64,000 bases of DNA, from contig OY282444.1 of the NCBI GenBank assembly GCA_958296125.1, positions 2,537,940 through 2,601,939 on the forward strand, read 5' to 3'. This DNA comes from an uncultured Poribacteria bacterium (GTDB lineage: Bacteria > Poribacteria > WGA-4E > PCPOR2b). Shown in pieces: positions 25,390 to 62,943 of this stretch. Within the stretch, counting starts at the first letter, position 1. The number at the start of each line of letters is the position of its first letter. The notes under the pieces were generated by a model that was not told the DNA's origin, ran no database searches, and saw only the letters and a program-made list of their open reading frames with translations. Position numbers and translations under genes: made by a program.

Positions 25390-25615
25390 ATCTCCCTCCA
25401 AGCTATGCTATTATTAATCGTTCGGCTAATGGTATGCATCCTCTTCAGAAATTTCTCATGGACAATCACAATACTGAATTTTCGCTGATTTTTCAGCGTT
25501 TTGTCAAGGTATTTTTTTCTGTATACAAGGGATTGGGTCTATGATACAATGTCAAAATTGATTAACATTTCCAAATTATCGGCGTTGGGGTGTGTTACGT
25601 GGATTTTTGCGTGAG

Positions 25616-26464
25616 ATGAGCCCTGTCCCTAACCTTTCAAATTTCCAATCCACTATGCAATCAATATTGACGAAACAGGTCATACGCTGGCGTAATTCCT
25701 ACCCATCCCCGGCTGAGGATTCTCTCGTGGTTGAGGAACCGCTCGAAATTCGAGTGGGTAGACAGAGCCTGATAGTTGTGATGCGAACACCGGGGCATGA
25801 CTTTGATCTCGCTGCAGGATTTCTTTACACGGAAGGGCTGATAACATCGTCCGATGACATCGGGGCAATCGCTTACTGTGAGGATATTGAGGGGCCGGAC
25901 CTGCAAAATATCATAAACGTTCACCTAACGAATGGACAGGTTCTCGAAGAGCAGCAGGGTTGGCAACGGAACTTCCACGCGAATGCTAGTTGTGGGTTGT
26001 GCGGCAAAATGACTATCGAATCGGTCAAACAGGAGATTCCACCGATAACATCAGAGATTCAGATAGATCCGGGCGTTTTTTACCTGCTCAACGATAAACT
26101 CCGATCGGCGCAATCTGTCTTTGAAGCAACCGGCGGGTTGCACGCCGCTGGATTATTTGATGAGCGGGGTGAACTGCAAATCATACGCGAGGATGTTGGA
26201 CGGCACAATGCAGTGGATAAGGTGATTGGACAGGCACTGTTAATTGAGCAACTTCCTTTAGATCGACACATTTTGATGGTAAGTGGACGCGCCAGTTTCG
26301 AGATTATTCAGAAAGCGTTATTCGCCCGCATACCAGTGATTGTAGCGGTTTCTGCGGCATCCAGTCTAGCTGTCGAATTGGCGCAAGAGGGGGCAATCAC
26401 GCTGATTGGGTTTATGCGCGGCAAAGGCATGACGGTCTACAGTCATCCGGGCAGGATTCGATGA
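25616..26464 (+). CDS. fdhD: FdhD, formate dehydrogenase accessory sulfurtransferase
   Basis: About 282 residues. PGHDFDLAAGFLYTEGLI, the sulfur-carrying NASCGLCGKMTIES (CxxC) and REDVGRHNAVDKVIG are diagnostic. FdhD passes sulfur from IscS to the molybdenum cofactor of formate dehydrogenase. No formate dehydrogenase gene is in the window. A GTG at 25592 and an ATG at 25655 are alternative starts; none has a strong ribosome site. Confidence 0.92.
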   Translation: MSPVPNLSNFQSTMQSILTKQVIRWRNSYPSPAEDSLVVEEPLEIRVGRQSLIVVMRTPGHDFDLAAGFLYTEGLITSSDDIGAIAYCEDIEGPDLQNIINVHLTNGQVLEEQQGWQRNFHANASCGLCGKMTIESVKQEIPPITSEIQIDPGVFYLLNDKLRSAQSVFEATGGLHAAGLFDERGELQIIREDVGRHNAVDKVIGQALLIEQLPLDRHILMVSGRASFEIIQKALFARIPVIVAVSAASSLAVELAQEGAITLIGFMRGKGMTVYSHPGRIR

Positions 26465-46672: not shown

Positions 46673-47509
46673 ATGGCTGCGGAAAATTGGATACCGGTTG
46701 GACCGGATTTAGAGACGATTCGGGGGCATTATGCAGACCCACTTTATGCCTTGTCTCAGGCGGAGATGCCTGCCATTATGTTTCGAGGGGCTTACGACGC
46801 GGATCAATGCACTCCATTGATTCAACGGTTCTACGACATGGGACTAGCGCGCAACCCCGAAGATGGCGCATACGGCGGAGACGAACGGGTGAGGACTGAC
46901 ATCGGCACCAGTTTGGGAATTCGCGGACAAAATCAAGAGCGTTTCTTCCAACATGCGGAAGCCACCCATCACCTGTTTAAATTCCTGTTTGATGGGTTCG
47001 ACAATCCGGTAGACCTCATCTATAATACGCTGTCGGCTCTTGCACCGGATAAACAGGTCAGAACAGCATACGAGCCAGATGGTCGCCGTTATGGTCCAGC
47101 GATTTTTCGCATCCATTACCACACCCAACTCTACCTACCCCACATTGATCATGTGAGGCTGCGAGAGGAGCGGACCGATTACGCCGTATACCGTTTTGAG
47201 CACCAGTTTGCGGGTGTGCTCTGCCTCCAAAATGCGGATGAATTTGACGCGGGTACGCAGGCAATTCTACATCAATGTTTGTGGACGGAGGAGGTCCAGC
47301 CATATATCGCCGAGGGCACTTTCCATCAGTATGCCGCTGAAAACGGTATCGAGAAGTGTCAAGTCGAACTGTCGCCGGGCGATCTGTATTTCTTCAACAC
47401 CCGGTGTATTCACGAAGTTCCTCCGGTGCAGGGGGACCACCCTCGAACTGTGCTAGCGGTGTTTATCGGCTACTCTTCAGACGATGATGAGATTTTTGTG
47501 TGGTCGTGA
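46673..47509 (+). CDS. 2-oxoglutarate/Fe(II) dioxygenase-like protein
   Basis: 278 residues. RIHYHTQLYLPHIDHVRLR supplies the HxD pair, ELSPGDLYFFNTRCIHEVPPV the distal His, and the following HPRTVLAVFIGY the 2-oxoglutarate Arg. It is closer to the prolyl-hydroxylase/2OG-FeII style than to the two PhyH proteins. Substrate unknown. GGAGGGGTTAG lies just before the ATG. Confidence 0.75.
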   Translation: MAAENWIPVGPDLETIRGHYADPLYALSQAEMPAIMFRGAYDADQCTPLIQRFYDMGLARNPEDGAYGGDERVRTDIGTSLGIRGQNQERFFQHAEATHHLFKFLFDGFDNPVDLIYNTLSALAPDKQVRTAYEPDGRRYGPAIFRIHYHTQLYLPHIDHVRLREERTDYAVYRFEHQFAGVLCLQNADEFDAGTQAILHQCLWTEEVQPYIAEGTFHQYAAENGIEKCQVELSPGDLYFFNTRCIHEVPPVQGDHPRTVLAVFIGYSSDDDEIFVWS

Positions 47510-52961: not shown

Positions 52962-55900
52962 ATGCAACCAAACTTGACTCGACTCATCATTATCTTCGTT
53001 GTTTTAGCAATAATCATCGGCGGGGGCGCGATCTTCGTCAAAATCTATCCTGACCTGCTCTGGTTTGATATGGTCGGCTACCTCACCATCTACAAAACGG
53101 TCCTACTGACAAGAATAGGGTTGGGAGTTGTCGTCGGCGGTTTCTTTCTCGCGGTGACCCTGACAAACCTCTATCTCCTGTATCGCTTTACCCCACCTCG
53201 ACTGAGTCCGACGCTCGTCGAATCGATCCCGCTTGAAGGTATGCCCGATTTTAACCTCCGGAAAGCGGTCTATATCGTACTTACACTCTTGGCGGTTGGA
53301 GGGAGCATCGTAGGCGGTTATGCCTCAACAGACTATTGGGAACAATTTCTCCGCTATTCAAACGCTAGCAATCTTTCCTTCCAATCCGCGACATCGCTCG
53401 ATGCACCGGCAAATCGGGAGGCTACAGAGGTTGCCATCTCTGAATTGGAGTATAATGCGAAAAGGTTTAAAGTAGGGGATGAGGTTACAATCGAAGAGGG
53501 AGATAACAGGCATAGTGCGAAAATCCGATCGATAAGCCCGGGTGCAGATGGGAGCGTCAAGATTGCATTAAGCCAAGGGCTTAGCTTCGGGGCGACCGAG
53601 GACGCAGTTCTGGTCGGAGCTGCCCGGGATCCAATTTTCAATAGAGATGTCAGCTACTATGTTTTTCGGATGCCCCTAGAACGCCTAATCTGCGGTTATC
53701 TATTCGGTCTATTCATGTTGGTCACTCTCTTTACGGGGGTGCTCTACTTTTTTCATGGGCTACTCATCAATGAAAACAACCGCTTTGAACCGCCGCAACG
53801 TGTCAAGACCCATCTGTTTCTGCTGATTGGGTTGATGCTGCTATTTCGTGCTTGGAATTACAGGTTTGTGATGTATGACCTACTCTACACCACCAACGAT
53901 GTCGTGCGGGGTGGGGGCGGTTATGCAGCGATACAGGCACGGTTGCCTGTGTTATGGATACTGCTCGCGCTTACCATTGGCTGCGCGTTGATTTTCTTCA
54001 TCAGTATTTTTTTCCGGCGTATCTCCTTCGCTGTTGGGAGCGTCATTGTTCTTCTGCTTGTTGCTTTTATGGGACAAGCCTATCCCCGTATCGTTCAAAA
54101 GCTGAAAGTTGAACCGAGCAAGCAGGAACTTGAGGGAAGATATATCAACTATAACATCAGGGCAACGCTGCACGCCTATGATCTGGAGGATAGCACCGTG
54201 ACCGAGACGGAGTACCCTTTGACGGGGGAATTGTCTTATGATAGCATCACGGGGCAGGAAAATGCAGCGGTGATTAACAGCATTCGGCTTTGGGATTGGC
54301 GGCCCCTGCGGCGAACTTTCCGCCAGCTACAGGAATTACGTTCACAATATGATTTCTCTGACGTAGATATCGACCGTTACCCGATGGGAAGCGGTGAACC
54401 TCGACAGGTGATGCTTTCCGGGCGCGAACTGAATATTAATGATTTACCGCGTGAAGTGAGTCGGGACTGGTTTAAGCGCACTTACGTCTACACTCACGGT
54501 TATGGAGCGGTGCTGAGTCCTGTGAACGAAATCCTCGACGGGAAGCCGAAGATGTACATTCGGGATATGGACCCAATTAACTACGAGCCTGAATGGACAC
54601 ATCGGTTTAACGACAATCCCGGGCCTCGAATTTACTATGGTGAGCGCACCAACCATTATGTTATCGTCCACCCGGACCGCTCCGATCCTCTTGAGTTTGA
54701 TTACCCCGAAACGTTTGGACAAGATTTTGCCAAATACGCGTACCAAGGCAAGGGCGGTGTCACCCTTTCCTCGTTCACCCGAAAATTCGCGTATATGCTG
54801 AAATTTAACAACGCGCTCAACTTTATTTTGCCCGGTGAAATACAATCGACAAGCCGCGTCCTCTACGATCGAAACATAAAGGAGCGTGTCAGCCAAATCG
54901 CCCCGTTCCTGAAATATGATAACGACCCTTACCTTGTCCTCCACAACGGTCGGTTAATCTGGGTGATCGATGCGTATACAACGACCGCCCGTTATCCCTA
55001 TTCTGCACCGATGCAGGATGCCATCCGCAGAACCATTGCGGAACGGGGGGGTAGACGTGCCGCTGGACGTATCGTCGGTGGTGAAAGCCCTTGGGGGAAT
55101 TATATTCGTAACGCCGCCAAAGTCACGATTGATGCCTACGACGGCAGCGTGAATTTCTATCTGATGGAGCAGGAGCAAGATCCGGTTGCGGAGTGTTATC
55201 GCCGCATCTTCCCAGATCTATTCAAACCGTTCGAGGCGATGCCCGCAGATCTCAAAGCGCATATCCGATATCCGACGACCATGTTTCGTATTCAGGCGCA
55301 AATGTATCAGGATTATCACATGAAAGACCCGATAACCTTCTACGCGAGTGAGGATCAGTGGCAGATTGGCGAGGAGCTTTACGATAATACCGAGCGTCCC
55401 CGCCCCCAACAGGCACCGCAACCGCCAAGCCCATTCACACGTACCCAACAATTGCCGGAGACGGTCACGAATGTGCAAGAAGTTGACCCTTACTATGTGG
55501 TTGTCAAAATACCGGGAGAGGAACATGCGGAATTTGTCCTGATGCTTCCTTTCACACCGAAAAACAAGCCGAACCTCACTGCATGGATTGCTGCGAGATG
55601 CGATTTACCACAGTATGGACACCTTCTGGTCTATCGCTTCCCGAAAGGAAAACTCGCCCCCGGCCCGATGCAGGTCGAAAACTTCATCACGCAAGAACCT
55701 GGAATTTCCCAGCAGATTAGCTTGTGGAATACGCAAGGCTCACGCGTCCTGCGGGGGAACCTGCTCATCATCCCGATGAATGAGGCCATTCTCTATGTTG
55801 AACCAATCTACATCCAAGCAGAGAACGAAGAGTCGGCGATTCCCGAATTGCGCCGCGTTGTTGTCGGTTATAAGGAAAATGTCGCATGGGGTGCGAGTCT

Positions 55901-56150
55901 TGATGAGGCATTGATCAATATGTTTGGTAAGCGACTGGAGGTCGCACTGACACAAGACACTTCTTCTGCCGACCCTCCCAAAGCGGCAAGTGCAGCGGGT
56001 TCGCTATCAATTCCGACGTTGGCAAAACAGGCGAGGGAGCAGTTCAAGGAGGCGCAAGCGGCGCAACGCGCAGGGAATTGGGCGGAATATGGACGTTACC
56101 TTAATCTTCTCGAAGCAACCTTGAAACAGCTTGAGGTGGATGCCCAATAA
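52962..56150 (+). CDS. UPF0182 family large membrane protein
   Basis: 1062 residues. About seven N-terminal membrane helices (first: LIIIFVVLAIIIGGGAIFV) carry the family marks DLLWFDMVGYLTIYKTVL, YRFTPPRLSP, and DLLYTTNDVVRGGGGYAAIQARLPVLW; a large extracytoplasmic domain follows with RRTFRQLQELRSQYDF, FAYMLKFNNALNFILPGEI and DNDPYLVLHNGRLIWVIDAYTTT. The segment around residues 140-225 (EVAISELEYNAKRFKVGDEV...) may be an inserted beta domain in the loop between two helices. Function of the family is unknown. GGAAGGAAAG lies just before the ATG. Confidence 0.9.
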   Translation: MQPNLTRLIIIFVVLAIIIGGGAIFVKIYPDLLWFDMVGYLTIYKTVLLTRIGLGVVVGGFFLAVTLTNLYLLYRFTPPRLSPTLVESIPLEGMPDFNLRKAVYIVLTLLAVGGSIVGGYASTDYWEQFLRYSNASNLSFQSATSLDAPANREATEVAISELEYNAKRFKVGDEVTIEEGDNRHSAKIRSISPGADGSVKIALSQGLSFGATEDAVLVGAARDPIFNRDVSYYVFRMPLERLICGYLFGLFMLVTLFTGVLYFFHGLLINENNRFEPPQRVKTHLFLLIGLMLLFRAWNYRFVMYDLLYTTNDVVRGGGGYAAIQARLPVLWILLALTIGCALIFFISIFFRRISFAVGSVIVLLLVAFMGQAYPRIVQKLKVEPSKQELEGRYINYNIRATLHAYDLEDSTVTETEYPLTGELSYDSITGQENAAVINSIRLWDWRPLRRTFRQLQELRSQYDFSDVDIDRYPMGSGEPRQVMLSGRELNINDLPREVSRDWFKRTYVYTHGYGAVLSPVNEILDGKPKMYIRDMDPINYEPEWTHRFNDNPGPRIYYGERTNHYVIVHPDRSDPLEFDYPETFGQDFAKYAYQGKGGVTLSSFTRKFAYMLKFNNALNFILPGEIQSTSRVLYDRNIKERVSQIAPFLKYDNDPYLVLHNGRLIWVIDAYTTTARYPYSAPMQDAIRRTIAERGGRRAAGRIVGGESPWGNYIRNAAKVTIDAYDGSVNFYLMEQEQDPVAECYRRIFPDLFKPFEAMPADLKAHIRYPTTMFRIQAQMYQDYHMKDPITFYASEDQWQIGEELYDNTERPRPQQAPQPPSPFTRTQQLPETVTNVQEVDPYYVVVKIPGEEHAEFVLMLPFTPKNKPNLTAWIAARCDLPQYGHLLVYRFPKGKLAPGPMQVENFITQEPGISQQISLWNTQGSRVLRGNLLIIPMNEAILYVEPIYIQAENEESAIPELRRVVVGYKENVAWGASLDEALINMFGKRLEVALTQDTSSADPPKAASAAGSLSIPTLAKQAREQFKEAQAAQRAGNWAEYGRYLNLLEATLKQLEVDAQ

Positions 56151-56189: not shown

Positions 56190-56264
56190 CCATCTTTTAA
56201 GCGTTCCGCTTCTGGGTTTGGGACTGACGTAAAGGATGAGACTAACGTAAAGGAGGTGAATTAC

Positions 56265-56510
56265 ATGGGACTCGATTGGAAACCACGTCATCGGGATATG
56301 CTCATTGGCGGGTACTGGTGGTTGGCGCGGGTTACGGATAAGGCACGTGCCAAGTTGAACGGTACTATCGGTGAGTACATCTACCCGTGACCGCAGGACA
56401 AAAAGTTCCTGGAGGAACACAAGCTAGACGCTGACGAGTTTGTTGGTATGGTGAAAAGCAATCCGTCAGACGACGATATGATTGCCGCGATGAAGCAGCT
56501 CAGTTCATAA
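56265..56510 (+). CDS. DUF5069-like protein with in-frame TGA (candidate selenoprotein)
   Basis: From ATG 56265, which has a perfect AAGGAGGTGA site, 41 codons read MGLDWKPRHRDMLIGGYWWL and on to GTIGEYIYP. Codon 42 is TGA (56388-56390). The same frame then continues PQDKKFLEEHKLDADEFVGM to TAA at 56510. Family members have GGYxxLARxxDKxRAxLxGTxGEYxYxCPLDxxFL, so the TGA stands exactly at the conserved Cys. Eighty-one residues in total matches the family size. The hairpin GTTCC-TGGA-GGAAC (56405-56418) has its loop 19 bases after TGA and a G in the second loop position, as in bacterial SECIS elements. Either UGA encodes selenocysteine, or a TGC/TGT to TGA change has broken the gene. Function of DUF5069 is unknown. 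Confidence 0.7.
56405..56418 (+). promoter_or_regulatory. Candidate bacterial SECIS hairpin
   Basis: Perfect 5-bp stem GTTCC/GGAAC with TGGA loop, 19 bases between TGA and loop. An alternative pairing CAGGA/TCCTG (56393-56411) competes with it, so the fold is not certain. Confidence 0.4.
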
Positions 56511-56638: not shown

Positions 56639-59146
56639 ATGAAAAAGACGACATTGTTTACTTTTATCCTATTATTAGTCTCTGTTCTGTTGTTATCAAA
56701 CAGCTTCGCGCAAAATAATCCGCAGTGGCAGCTGCCCGATGGTGCCACTACGCGATTTGGAAAAGGCTGGATATCTGGACTTGAATATTCGCCTGACGGC
56801 ACCCGGTTGGCAGTCGGCAGTGCCATCGGTATTTGGCTCTACGATGCAGCGACACTTCAAGAGGTTGATTTACTCACAGGGCACACAGAAGCAGTGTCCA
56901 CTATCGCATACTCCCCGGACGGAGGTATACTTGCCAGTGGGAGTTGGGACAATACTATTCGGTTGTGGAATACTGCAACCGGTGAGACCATCAATACCCT
57001 CACCGGTCATGAGGAAGGTATATTGAGCATTGCCTTTAGTCCGGATGGAAAAACCCTCGTCAGTGGGAGCTACGACGATACCGTTCGCCTATGGGATATT
57101 GATACCGGCGAAAATATCAAAACCCTTACCGGGCATGAGGACTGGGTCTCTAGCGTTGCTTTCAGTCACGCTGGGAGCATGATTGCTAGTGGAAGTTGGG
57201 ATCAAACCGTCCGCCTGTGGGATGTTGACACCGGCGAGAACACCCAAACCCTCACTGGACATACATCTCTCATCGAGACGCTTGCTTTCGGTTGGGGAGG
57301 CACTCTCGCCAGTGGAGACTATGACGCGATGATCCATCTGTGGAATGTTAAAACAGGTGAGAAAATCAGAACTCTTACCGGGCATACTTCAGTTATCTAC
57401 GAGGTCACTTTTTCTGCGGATGGGGGCATATTGGCGAGCGCGAGTGAGGACGATACCATCCGCCTATGGAATGCGGTTACGGGTGAAACCGTCAAAGCCT
57501 TTACCGGACACACGGCTGATGTCTATAGGGTTGCGTTTAGCCCGGATGGCAGCACCCTCGCCAGTGGGAGTGGTGATGCAACGGTCCGTTTGTGGGATGT
57601 TGACACAAATGAGAACATTGGAACCCTTACCGGGCATGAGATCCGTGTCCTGAGCGTCGCTTTCGGTCCGGGGGGTCGCACGTTCGTCGGTCGGAGTTGG
57701 GATCAAACTATCCATATCTGGAATACTGAAACAGGAGAGCGTCAACCCTTTCTTGTGGGGCATACGGATGATGTAGATATTGTTGTTTTCAGTCGGGATG
57801 GCCGCACAATTGCCAGCGGCAGTCAGGACAATACTGTTCGCCTGTGGGCCGTGGGAGGGGCATCCCTGCCCCGAACCGGAGCGCACCTGAAAACCCTCGT
57901 CGCGCATACGGCTTATATTACAACCCTTGCTTTCAGTCCCGATGGAAAGACCCTCGCAAGTGGGAGTGAGGACGATACCATCCGCTTGTGGGATGTCGCC
58001 ACCGGGGCGCGTTTGGCAACCCTCTACGGACACGGTGCTGGTGTTGAGCACATCACTTTTAGTCCCAATGGAAAGACCCTCGCAAGTGGGGGTCGAGACG
58101 CTGCCGTTGCCCTGTGGGATGTCGAGACCGGGGATGTTCTGCAAGCGTTCTTTGGCCATCGGGGTCATGTTCTCACCGTTGCTTTCAGTCCCGATGGAGA
58201 GACCCTCGCAAGTGGAGGGTGGGACAATACCATTCGCCTGTGGGATGTCACCACCGGTGAGGAGGTGACAACCATCCGAGGGAGTGAGTATGGTGTCGAA
58301 AGCGTTATTGAAAGTGTTGCCTTCAGTCTCGATGGAAAGATCCTCGCAGCCGGGGGTTGGGGTTATACGATTGGCTTGTGGGATGTTGCAACAACAGAGC
58401 ACATCGAAACCTTTACCGGACATACCTCTAGGATTGAGAGCGTTGCTTTCAACCCCGATGGCACCGTCCTCGCCAGTGGAAGTCAGGACGGCACGGTGTT
58501 GCTATGGGATATTCCAGAACCCGAGGTGCCCCCGTTGGTCGAGGATGTCAACGGGAATGGGGTGGTCAACATCTTGGATTTAACGCTAGTTGGCTTACGC
58601 TTGGGCCAGACAGGGGAAAACGATGCCGATGTCAACGGGGATGGCGTTGTGGACATTGTGGATTTGGTTCAGGTCGCCGGTGCGATAGGCAACGTGGCTG
58701 CTGCCCCTGCGGTGCAGTCCCTCGCTCTAGCAAATCTGACCAACGCCGATGTTGAGGACTGGCTCACCCAAGCACAAGCGTTAGATCTCACGGATGTCCG
58801 CTCACAAAGGGGAATCCTTTTCCTTGAACAATTCCTTGCAGCACTAGCTCCCAAGGCGACAGCACTCTTGCCTAACTTTCCCAACCCGTTCAATCCAGAG
58901 ACATGGATTCCTTATCAACTCGCCAATGACACTGATGTAATACTGACGGTTTACGATACAAAGGGCACACCGGTGCGCCAATTCGATTTGGGACATCAGT
59001 CCGCGGGATTCTATACTACCCGAACGACAGCTGCCTATTGGGACGGATGTAACGAAATCGGCGAATCGGTCGTAAGCGGGGTCTATTTCTATCAACTCCA
59101 AGCAGGCGATTACACCGACTTACGACGCATGGTGATTCTCAAGTAG
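56639..59146 (+). CDS. 14-repeat WD40 protein with dockerin-like and sorting domains (copy 1)
   Basis: 835 residues. A signal peptide (LFTFILLLVSVLLLSNSFA) is followed by fourteen WD40 units, each of about 42 residues ending in forms of RLWDVDTGE, enough for two seven-bladed propellers. A dockerin-like pair of calcium loops follows (DVNGNGVVNILDL; DVNGDGVVDIVDL). The end is a FlgD/T9SS-like domain (LLPNFPNPFNPETWIPYQL ... SGVYFYQLQAGDYTDLRRM). It is probably exported and displayed or secreted, with the propellers binding partners. Repeat 9 carries an in-frame REP-like insertion (57851-57874), making RLWAVGGASLPRTGAHL where its paralogue has RLWDVDTGAHL. Confidence 0.9.
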   Translation: MKKTTLFTFILLLVSVLLLSNSFAQNNPQWQLPDGATTRFGKGWISGLEYSPDGTRLAVGSAIGIWLYDAATLQEVDLLTGHTEAVSTIAYSPDGGILASGSWDNTIRLWNTATGETINTLTGHEEGILSIAFSPDGKTLVSGSYDDTVRLWDIDTGENIKTLTGHEDWVSSVAFSHAGSMIASGSWDQTVRLWDVDTGENTQTLTGHTSLIETLAFGWGGTLASGDYDAMIHLWNVKTGEKIRTLTGHTSVIYEVTFSADGGILASASEDDTIRLWNAVTGETVKAFTGHTADVYRVAFSPDGSTLASGSGDATVRLWDVDTNENIGTLTGHEIRVLSVAFGPGGRTFVGRSWDQTIHIWNTETGERQPFLVGHTDDVDIVVFSRDGRTIASGSQDNTVRLWAVGGASLPRTGAHLKTLVAHTAYITTLAFSPDGKTLASGSEDDTIRLWDVATGARLATLYGHGAGVEHITFSPNGKTLASGGRDAAVALWDVETGDVLQAFFGHRGHVLTVAFSPDGETLASGGWDNTIRLWDVTTGEEVTTIRGSEYGVESVIESVAFSLDGKILAAGGWGYTIGLWDVATTEHIETFTGHTSRIESVAFNPDGTVLASGSQDGTVLLWDIPEPEVPPLVEDVNGNGVVNILDLTLVGLRLGQTGENDADVNGDGVVDIVDLVQVAGAIGNVAAAPAVQSLALANLTNADVEDWLTQAQALDLTDVRSQRGILFLEQFLAALAPKATALLPNFPNPFNPETWIPYQLANDTDVILTVYDTKGTPVRQFDLGHQSAGFYTTRTTAAYWDGCNEIGESVVSGVYFYQLQAGDYTDLRRMVILK
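57851..57874 (+). repeat. REP-like repeat inserted in a WD40 unit
   Basis: GTGGGAGGGGCATCCCTGCC then CCGA within the coding sequence. Compared with the tandem paralogue the site is 18 bases longer, so the frame is kept. Confidence 0.8.
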
Positions 59147-59238
59147 GCACACCAATTGCTGAATCTAAGCTACCTCTACTGTTACTGTGGATTTGGAAAT
59201 TCGCAAAACAGACAGCTCAAAACGGAGAACCCCTCTCA

Positions 59239-61761
59239 ATGAAAAAGAAGATACTTTTTAGCCTTACTGTATTAGTCTTTACTCTATTTCTATCAAATAG
59301 CTTCGCCCAAGATAATCCGCAGTGGCGGTTACCCAATGATGCCATTGCGCGATTTGGTAAAGGGTGGATAGCTGGACTTCAGTATTCGCCTGACGGCACC
59401 CGGTTGGCGGTCGGCAGTGCCATCGGTATTTGGCTCTACGATACGGCAACCCTTCAAGAGGTTGATCTGCTCACCGGGCAGACCGCAGTATATTCTTCTG
59501 TGGTGTTTTCGCCATCCTATTCTATAGCGTATTCGCCGGATGGGAGCATACTTGCTAGCGGGGGTTGGGACCAAACTATCCGTCTGTGGAATACCACTAC
59601 AAGTGAGGACATCAAAACCTTGATCGGGCATAGGAGTAGTATCCGCAGCCTCGCTTTTAGCCCGGATGGAAAAATTCTCGCAAGTGGAAGTTACGACGAT
59701 ACTGTTCGCCTGTGGGATGTTGACACCGGTGAGACCGTTCACACTCTGACCGAACATACGGATCGGGTCACCAGCGTTGCTTTTAGCCCAAACGGGGATA
59801 GGGTTGCTAGTGGAAGTTGGGATCAAACGGTCCGTCTATGGAACGTTGAGACCGGCGAGAATATCAGAACCATCACCGGACATACGTCTCTCGTCCGGGC
59901 AGTTGCTTTTAGCCCGGAGGGAGCGATGCTCGCCAGTGGAGATTACGATGCAGCCATCCGTCTGTGGGATGTTGACACCGGCGACGAAATCAAAACACTC
60001 ACCGGGCATACCTCCATTATCTACGGACTCACTTTTTCGGATGAGGGGATGTTGGCAAGCGCGAGTGAGGACGATACGATTCGCTTGTGGGATGTTGACA
60101 CCGGTGAGACCGTTCACACTCTGACCGAACATACGGCTGATGTCTACAGAGTCGCGTTTAGCCCGGATGGGCGCACACTCGCAAGCGGGGCGTGGGATGC
60201 AAGCGTCCGCCTATGGGACGTTGATACGGGTGAGCCCATCGAAACTATTACTGGGTTCGCGGATGTTGTTTTGAACGTTGCGTTTAGTCCGGAGGGGCGC
60301 GTACTCGTCGGTCGGAGTTGGGATAGGACCATCCGCCTGTGGAATACCGAAACAGGAGAGCGCGACCACTTCCTCTCCGGGCATACAGACGATGTGAGCA
60401 TCGTTGCTTTTAGCCCGGATGGGCACACCCTCGCTAGTGGCAGTGATGACGATACGGTCCGCTTGTGGGACGTTGATACCGGCGCACACCTGAAAACCCT
60501 CGTCGGGCATAGGGCTTATATCATAAGCGTTGCTTTCAGTCCCGATGGGAGCATGGTGGCGAGCGGAAGTGAGGACGATGACATCCGCTTGTGGGATGTT
60601 GCCACCGGGGCGCGCTTGAGAACCCTCCGCGGACATAGCACCGGCATCGAGAGCATCGCTTTCAGTCCCAATGGTACAATCCTCGCCAGTGGAAGTCGAG
60701 ACAGTACTGTTCGTCTGTGGGATGTCGCCACTGGGGAATCTCTGAGCGTCCTTGGCGGCCATGAGGGTCATGTCCTCACTGTTGCTTTCAGTCCCGATGG
60801 AAAATTTGTTGCAAGTGCCGGATGGGATCGTGTCATACGGTTGTGGGATGTTGACACCGGTGAGGAGGTAATAGCCATCAACAGGGAGGCGCATGGTGTC
60901 GAGAGTGTCGCTTTCAGTCCCGATGGAAAATTTGTTGCAAGTGGAGCGTGGGATGATACGGTTGGTTTGTGGGATGCTACCACCGGCGAGTCATTGAAAA
61001 CCTTCGTCGGGCATACGTCTAGCGTTGAGAGTGTTGTTTTCAGTTCCGATGGTACCACCCTCGCCAGTGGGAGCTCGGATGGCACAGTGCTTTTGTGGGA
61101 TGTGACACTCCCACCATCTCCCGAAGAGCCACCGCCCCCGGTTGTCGAGGAGGTTGAGGATGTCAATGGGAATGGGGTGGTCAACATCTTGGATTTAACA
61201 CTGGTTGGCTTACGCTTGGGACAGACAGGGGAAAACGATGCCGATGTCAACGGGGATGGCGTTGTGGACATTGCAGACTTGATTCAGGTCGCAAGTGCTA
61301 TCGGAAACTCCACTGCCGCGCCTGCCGCACATCCCTTGGCACTTACGAACCTGACCCCCGCCGATGTCGAGGGGTGGCTCACTCAAACACAGGAATTGGA
61401 TCTTACGGATATAAGGATACAAAAAGGAATTCTCTTCCTTGAACAACTCCTTGTAGCACTGGTTCCGCAAGAGACAGCACTCTTGCCGAATTACCCCAAT
61501 CCGTTCAATCCGGAGACGTGGATTCCTTATCAACTTGCTAACGACGCTGATGTGACCCTCACGGTTTATGACACAAAAGGCACGCCGGTGCGCCAGTTCC
61601 ATTTGGGGTATCAGTCCGCAGGATTCTACACCACTCGGACGAACACCGCTTATTGGGACGGACGTAATGAAAACGGCGAATCGGTCGCAAGCGGGGTCTA
61701 TTTCTATCAACTCCAAGCAGGGGATTATACCGACTTACGACGGATGGCAATTGTCAAATAA
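59239..61761 (+). CDS. 14-repeat WD40 protein with dockerin-like and sorting domains (copy 2)
   Basis: 840 residues with the same order of domains as its upstream neighbour: signal peptide, fourteen WD40 units, a proline-rich linker (PPSPEEPPPPVVEEV), dockerin-like DVNGNGVVNILDL/DVNGDGVVDIADL, and the NPFNPETWIPYQL terminal domain. The two genes are tandem duplicates, including the shared upstream CAAAACGGAGAAC(C)-CTCTCAATG region. This copy has no REP-like insertion, so it shows the ancestral state of that site. Repeats near 59700 and 60090 are almost identical to each other at DNA level (GATGTTGACACCGGTGAGAC), a sign of recent conversion. Confidence 0.9.
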   Translation: MKKKILFSLTVLVFTLFLSNSFAQDNPQWRLPNDAIARFGKGWIAGLQYSPDGTRLAVGSAIGIWLYDTATLQEVDLLTGQTAVYSSVVFSPSYSIAYSPDGSILASGGWDQTIRLWNTTTSEDIKTLIGHRSSIRSLAFSPDGKILASGSYDDTVRLWDVDTGETVHTLTEHTDRVTSVAFSPNGDRVASGSWDQTVRLWNVETGENIRTITGHTSLVRAVAFSPEGAMLASGDYDAAIRLWDVDTGDEIKTLTGHTSIIYGLTFSDEGMLASASEDDTIRLWDVDTGETVHTLTEHTADVYRVAFSPDGRTLASGAWDASVRLWDVDTGEPIETITGFADVVLNVAFSPEGRVLVGRSWDRTIRLWNTETGERDHFLSGHTDDVSIVAFSPDGHTLASGSDDDTVRLWDVDTGAHLKTLVGHRAYIISVAFSPDGSMVASGSEDDDIRLWDVATGARLRTLRGHSTGIESIAFSPNGTILASGSRDSTVRLWDVATGESLSVLGGHEGHVLTVAFSPDGKFVASAGWDRVIRLWDVDTGEEVIAINREAHGVESVAFSPDGKFVASGAWDDTVGLWDATTGESLKTFVGHTSSVESVVFSSDGTTLASGSSDGTVLLWDVTLPPSPEEPPPPVVEEVEDVNGNGVVNILDLTLVGLRLGQTGENDADVNGDGVVDIADLIQVASAIGNSTAAPAAHPLALTNLTPADVEGWLTQTQELDLTDIRIQKGILFLEQLLVALVPQETALLPNYPNPFNPETWIPYQLANDADVTLTVYDTKGTPVRQFHLGYQSAGFYTTRTNTAYWDGRNENGESVASGVYFYQLQAGDYTDLRRMAIVK

Positions 61762-61863: not shown

Positions 61864-62943
61864 ATGAAACTAAGAGACTACCGCAATCTGCTGGATCAGA
61901 TTGATGACCAGATTTTAGCCCTTTTACAGGAACGGGCAACTATTGTCAAACGGGTCGGTGAGCTCAAATCGCGCACCGGCGTTGAACAGATTTATGCGCC
62001 GCATCGGGAGCGGGAAATTCTCTCTCGGTTGGAAATGCGGAACCGAGGGCAATTCCCGTCCGATGCCCTACATACAATTTATACTGAAATTATCTCTGCC
62101 TGTCGTGCGCTCGAAAGGCCGTTATCCATTGCCTTCCTCGGGCCCGTTGGTAGTTTCGGTCACACGGTGAGTTCGCACCTCTTTGGTCAGTCAGTAAAGT
62201 TTATCGCGGTGGTGCCCCAACCCGACATCTTTGCGACGGTGGAATCCGGTCGAGCGGATTATGGTGTTGTCGCGATCGAAAACTCTAGGCATGGAACGGT
62301 CCGTGATGTTTTAGATATGTTTCAGTACACATCCCTTCAAATTTGCGGGGAGTGCTTCTTGCCGATTAAGCAGCATCTCCTCTCAAAATCCCCCCTCGCA
62401 CAGATTAAAAAGATCTATTCCCATCCACAGGCTTTCGCCCAATGTCGTCAATGGCTCAGTCAAAATATGCCAGGTGTACAACAGATTGAGGTTTCCAGCA
62501 CATCAGAAGCGGCGGAACTGGCAACCAATGAGCCAAATACAGCAGCAATAGCGAGTCAATTCGCCGGCGAGATTTATGGACTGCGTATGGTGGGAGAATC
62601 AATAATGGACGGACCCAATAACACGACGCGCTTCCTTGTTATTGGGAGTCACTCGGCGGCACGCACTGGAAACGACCGAACCTCTATCCTTTTCGCGGTT
62701 AAGGATAAGGTTGGCGCATTATGGGAGGTGCTGCAGGTTTTGAAAAACTATGAGGTCAATATGAGCAAGATTGAATCCCTGCCATCTCGTACCAAAGCGT
62801 GGGAGTATGTTTTCTTTGTAGATTTGGAGGGGCACGCGGAGGATGAAAATGTCCGAAAAGCACTTACAGAAACTGAAGAGTTTTGCGTACTCGTGAAAAT
62901 CTTGGGGACTTATCCGGCTGGGGATCAGAGCGAGGGGTTTTAA
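61864..62943 (+). CDS. pheA: Chorismate mutase / prephenate dehydratase (P-protein)
   Basis: 359 residues. Chorismate mutase domain at 1-85 (LLDQIDDQILALLQERATIV), prephenate dehydratase at about 92-265 (FLGPVGSFGHTVSSHLFG; catalytic Thr in NNTTRFLVIG), and a C-terminal ACT domain (KVGALWEVLQVLKNYEVNM; KIESLPSR) that binds phenylalanine for feedback. It turns chorismate into phenylpyruvate. In the dehydratase start the usual GTYSE/A reads GSFGH. No ribosome site stronger than a loose GGAGATAG is seen. Confidence 0.92.
   Translation: MKLRDYRNLLDQIDDQILALLQERATIVKRVGELKSRTGVEQIYAPHREREILSRLEMRNRGQFPSDALHTIYTEIISACRALERPLSIAFLGPVGSFGHTVSSHLFGQSVKFIAVVPQPDIFATVESGRADYGVVAIENSRHGTVRDVLDMFQYTSLQICGECFLPIKQHLLSKSPLAQIKKIYSHPQAFAQCRQWLSQNMPGVQQIEVSSTSEAAELATNEPNTAAIASQFAGEIYGLRMVGESIMDGPNNTTRFLVIGSHSAARTGNDRTSILFAVKDKVGALWEVLQVLKNYEVNMSKIESLPSRTKAWEYVFFVDLEGHAEDENVRKALTETEEFCVLVKILGTYPAGDQSEGF

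Follow-up and report, generated by a model that had tools for sequence, protein, structure and literature searches.

The window analysed here, a stretch of 64,000 nucleotides (nt) from the genome of an uncultured member of the Poribacteria, carries a short gene of the DUF5069 family with an in-frame TGA that very probably encodes selenocysteine (Sec). The source genome is a single contig of 5.16 Mb (C1), of which the window covers C1:2537940-2601939, and Poribacteria are known mostly from marine sponges. The frame opens with an ATG at 56265, runs through 41 codons to the TGA at 56388-56390 and continues for 39 codons to a TAA at 56508-56510. With the TGA read through it comprises 81 codons and gives the product MGLDWKPRHRDMLIGGYWWLARVTDKARAKLNGTIGEYIYPUPQDKKFLEEHKLDADEFVGMVKSNPSDDDMIAAMKQLSS, in which a membrane segment is not apparent from the sequence. 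The match to Pfam family PF16798 crosses the TGA, aligning residues 7-78 with profile positions 4-75 of 133 at 59.2 bits against a gathering cut-off of 27. This bears out the initial annotation, which had described one DUF5069 frame across the TGA with a ribosome binding site and a 39-codon tail. The full length of the profile is not covered, the short form being the norm in the lineage, and by sequence and fold the gene product is a short form of DUF5069, not a full-length member. In nearly all Poribacteria homologues the start codon is preceded by a site resembling AGGAGGTG. Just 5' of the gene in the window, at 56222-56259, a near-duplicate pair, GACTGACGTAAAGGATGA and GACTAACGTAAAGGAGGTGA, doubles the ribosome-site-like stretch.

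The initial annotation had proposed looking in relatives for TGA at the same codon, and the Poribacteria homologues have it, while sister lineages have cysteine (Cys) codons. A homologue scan covering one genome per species found codon 42 to be TGA in 55/55 Poribacteria loci, which were 66-94% identical, and TGC or TGT at the site in three Chloroflexota loci. Across 85 genomes of the phylum, the short form was present in 78, 72 of which have TGA (73 genes, the source genome included) and six Cys. All six Cys genomes belong to one family, designated f7 (L148-L153), and use TGC or TGT. In a comparison of 61 distinct Sec genes, codon 42 was always TGA, never TAA or TAG, and the terminal stop was TAG in 31, TAA in 28 and TGA in 2. 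The tail after the TGA is 39 codons long in 58 of the 61, and the ratio of nonsynonymous to synonymous differences (pN/pS) is 0.13 before the TGA and 0.19 after it, which places the tail under purifying selection. The conserved tail length, the low pN/pS of the tail and the invariance of TGA at codon 42 together argue that the tail is translated protein.

A search of the source genome for selA, selB, selC and selD, a check suggested by the initial annotation, found all four over cut-off in the single contig, with selC, selB and selA mutually adjacent (C1:47917-51235). The selD gene (L160:520-1600, C1 about 1302520-1303600) has its own in-frame TGA, in the context TCG-U-AAK, which is the known Sec site of SelD. 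For this site the motif UxxK has been listed (PMC13188914, Table 1). SelD, a known selenoenzyme of another family, served as an internal control: 17 nt past its UGA lies the hairpin AGUCC-AGUU-GGACU, which is of the same make as the DUF5069 hairpin described below (xUCC-NG[G/U]N-GGAx), stands at a similar distance and has the core UCC-NG[G/U]N-GGA in common with it. In the survey of the phylum, selB was detected in 68 of the 72 genomes with TGA, including all that are at least 90% complete; the four in which it was not found have a completeness of 73-83%. It was also retained in five of the six f7 genomes, so Cys replaces Sec there without loss of the Sec system, which other selenoproteins presumably keep going. 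SelA and SelB have been reported to co-occur in most sponge symbiont bins, in a passage that names no DUF5069 selenoprotein (PMC5649159).

Downstream of the TGA is a candidate selenocysteine insertion sequence (SECIS), a hairpin with a 5-bp stem and the loop UGGA at 56410-56413, starting 14 nt past the UGA and placing its loop 19 nt past it. The model for bacterial SECIS elements (bSECIS) asks for a loop of 3-9 nt with G in the first two positions, a stem of 4-16 bp, 16-37 nt from UGA to loop and a free energy no higher than -7.5 kcal/mol (PMC13188914). Loop, stem and spacing match this model, including a loop G-G with flanking bases able to pair. The 14-nt hairpin is identical in 61/61 Sec genes, where the codons TTC CTG GAG GAA are without synonymous change; elsewhere in the same genes six Leu codons and both the Phe and the Glu codons are used. 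It is not retained in nine Cys genes, and although those of f7 often still encode F-L-E, their codons differ and the stem is no longer fully paired. Several properties of the hairpin nevertheless weigh against Sec insertion. The isolated hairpin has a free energy of just -4.2 kcal/mol. In free RNA from the source genome its probability is 0.05, another fold winning because pairing with the bases just after the UGA competes. The probability rises to 0.99 when the bases beside the UGA are occupied, as they would be on a ribosome, with the L157 gene reaching only 0.35. Covariation was not shown in the Poribacteria Sec genes, since the hairpin core is invariant and, of the two outer pairs, just one changes on both sides. 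We rejected a hairpin in a single sequence as proof, as SECIS-like hairpins accompany six TGA sites of the window whose flanking frames are open. The evidence from the hairpin is its conservation across homologues, far beyond chance, and not its fold; the element described in the initial annotation has the 5 bp, the G in the loop and the spacing claimed for it, but its free energy is weak.

We put the probability that the TGA at 56388-56390 encodes Sec, making this DUF5069 gene a selenoprotein gene, at about 0.94. The sel genes, the conservation of the TGA, Cys in sister lineages and the hairpin all give strong support to the candidate selenoprotein of the initial annotation, and none of the refuting results that it had named was found. 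The hairpin at 56405-56418 would recruit SelB carrying Sec-tRNA-Sec, made by SelA, SelD and SelC of the source genome, and the ribosome would then read the UGA as Sec. In its UGA, bSECIS-type hairpin, Cys/Sec exchange and accompanying sel genes, the locus resembles those of bacterial single-Sec selenoproteins with Cys homologues (PMC13188914). The features of the locus and of the genome are collected in the table.

Features of the DUF5069 locus, its surroundings in the window and the Sec machinery (positions are those of the window unless prefixed C1)
Feature	Position	Strand	Evidence
DUF5069 short-form selenoprotein gene (probable), 81 aa, Sec at residue 42	56265..56510	+	PF16798 E 6.3e-16
Ribosome binding site AAGGAGGTGA of the DUF5069 gene	56250..56259	+	sequence
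In-frame TGA, probably read as Sec42, motif G-E-Y-I-Y-P-U-P-Q-D	56388..56390	+	homologue conservation
Bacterial SECIS candidate GUUCC-UGGA-GGAAC	56405..56418	+	identical in 61/61 Sec genes; RNAalifold consensus
selC (tRNA-Sec)	C1:47917-48006	minus	76.6 bits (gathering 47), anticodon tca
selB	C1:48137-50029	minus	370 bits
selA	C1:50138-51235	minus	529 bits
selD (TIGR00476)	C1:1302552-1303472		370 bits; own in-frame TGA in TCG-U-AAK
UPF0182 (COG1615-type) membrane protein gene, 114 nt 5' of the ATG	52962..56150	+	PF03699 E 9.8e-240
pheA-type chorismate mutase/prephenate dehydratase	61864..62943	+	PF01817, PF00800, PF01842
fdhD	25592-26464		PF02634 E 1.6e-70

An AlphaFold2 model of the selenoprotein has four helices (predicted local distance difference test, pLDDT, 78.6), with Sec42 immediately before helix 43-51, within GEYIYPUPxD, where Y38, Y40, P41 and D45 are invariant. 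The only convincing match in a structure search was PDB 3omd, the crystal structure of a DUF5069 protein of unknown function from Leptospirillum rubarum (Z 11.6, root-mean-square deviation 1.9 over 78 residues, VIA-align), which has the same fold, matches in sequence at E 1e-13 and has Cys (GEYTYNCPLDQ) where the source protein has Sec. The Cys that the initial annotation had placed in the conserved motif is conserved in the short DUF5069 form and present in 3omd; the long paralogue of the source genome that was read (L001/L002) is without Cys there (YLYGDNSG, YTYGEDSG). With Cys in this position in sister lineages, the family would already have had a thiol chemistry, on which Sec probably improves. 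Besides Sec, no Cys occurs in any of 54 distinct Sec proteins, so that there is no CxxU or UxxC motif and an internal selenenylsulfide is impossible. In this the protein differs from the thioredoxin-fold redox selenoproteins, and it may differ from them in fold as well, its model being helical with 3omd as the one convincing match. The most likely role of Sec42 is that of a redox or nucleophilic centre with one selenol, which an outside thiol or a thioredoxin-like partner would have to reset, given that no Sec form has another Cys. Against this stands the fact that the redox role is drawn from analogy and from a single residue, at the start of a helix, in a medium-confidence model.

The strongest competing explanation accepts the selenoprotein and has Sec serve metal or ligand binding, structure or regulation instead of redox catalysis. 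Such roles would suit a protein with no second Cys or Sec for the usual CxxU pair, a small domain modelled as helical and not as a thioredoxin fold, and conserved neighbours that give no clear redox partner. Yet Sec exchanges with Cys and as a rule persists where its reactivity is an advantage, and its location directly before a helix would promote a reactive selenolate. These two points are not specific proof, and we regard a non-redox role as the less probable of the two, though one to be taken seriously.

Explanations that dispense with Sec fare far worse. The UGA might be read through in another way, by genome-wide reassignment to Trp or Gly or by near-cognate readthrough without selenium, as the open tail beyond the TGA would allow and as local hairpins can also signal. 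TGA is, however, an ordinary stop in this genome, ending 16 of 34 long open reading frames in the window with mostly short frames beyond; homologues have Cys at the site, not Trp or Gly, and the genome has a complete Sec system, which makes readthrough of this kind highly improbable. The same use of TGA as a stop would fit a nonsense mutation, leaving a pseudogene or a 41-residue peptide as the real product, but this alternative, raised by the initial annotation as a single-base change, is ruled out in that form by the conservation of the TGA across Poribacteria, and with the codon shared by 72 genomes and never TAA or TAG, the in-frame tail under purifying selection and the silent sites of the hairpin frozen, it is hardly credible in any other.

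TGA at this codon also occurs outside the Poribacteria. The short form was found in 37 of 400 Chloroflexota genomes, three of which (L191, L192 and L193) have TGA at the same codon; in the other 34 genomes the match contains no stop, and wherever the codon was read it was TGC or TGT. The three Chloroflexota Sec genes have GTGCTCGGTGAG in common, which gives the hairpin GCUC-GGU-GAGC 21 nt past the UGA, its last pair being G-U in L193. Their Cys relatives are without this hairpin, though V-L-G-E is often encoded, by other codons. Over cut-off, selB was found in two of the three Chloroflexota Sec genomes and was not found in the third (2.3 Mb). The idea that the short form is tied to selenium use was rejected: selB is present in 32 of the 37 Chloroflexota genomes with the short form versus 306 of all 400 (Fisher p 0.16), so no link is shown.

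In a tree of 53 proteins (75 columns), the distribution of Sec needs four changes, at least three of them by well supported branches. The branches concerned are the Poribacteria, where f7 has Cys, and a clade of Chloroflexota, where L197 has it. This is suggestive of a single gain of Sec in Poribacteria with reversion to Cys in one family, and of a separate gain in the Chloroflexota clade. L197 (G129:C1:268724-268930) is a Chloroflexota Cys form nested among Sec forms, in a genome without selB over cut-off; it is possibly a Sec-to-Cys reversion after loss of the Sec system, its placement in the tree being unsure. Going further, the short DUF5069 may be a new class of selenoenzyme, small, helical, non-thioredoxin and with a single Sec that no Cys resolves. 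Sec would have had independent origins in the Poribacteria and the Chloroflexota clade, and on both occasions a new SECIS hairpin would have formed within the same stretch of the gene; we give this proposal an even chance of being correct.

Among the loci scanned, the gene has a UPF0182 relative upstream in 53 and a pheA relative downstream in 47, and a QueG-like gene (read by eye) is also conserved downstream; these neighbours give no clear lead to its function or to a redox partner. Many relatives have pheA directly 3' of the selenoprotein gene, unlike the source genome, where two genes for WD40 beta-propeller proteins with a sorting-like domain at the C-terminus stand in tandem between them (56639-61761). 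The initial annotation had also pointed to fdhD in the window; the gene is present, but as an argument for a selenoprotein it is weak, fdhD not being specific to selenium, and the case does not depend on it. Elsewhere in the window, 46673-47509 encodes a protein of the WelO5-like 2-oxoglutarate halogenase family (PF22814, E 7.5e-20) that may be of interest for the natural products of the symbiosis.

The 119 prokaryotic selenoprotein families inventoried in 2026 (PMC13188914, Table 1) do not include DUF5069 (PF16798), and no NCBIfam model matches the protein. We found no paper that names DUF5069 or PF16798 and none that treats Poribacteria together with a selenoprotein; subscription papers and bioRxiv lay outside the search, so an earlier report is possible. 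The initial annotation, which was aware of no described DUF5069 selenoprotein, agrees with the inventory and the literature searched. Since it is absent from the inventory, the NCBIfam models and this literature, DUF5069 represents a new selenoprotein family, and the present gene the first selenoprotein in DUF5069, as far as could be searched.

The finding places a residue of special chemistry in a domain that has a solved structure (3omd) but no known function, so that a likely active site of DUF5069 can be named. It implies the use of selenium across most Poribacteria, where annotation under the standard code would truncate the gene at residue 41. The pattern of Sec and Cys in two phyla also offers a clean case for the rise and decay of SECIS hairpins, whose silent sites are frozen in the Sec genes and free in the Cys genes.
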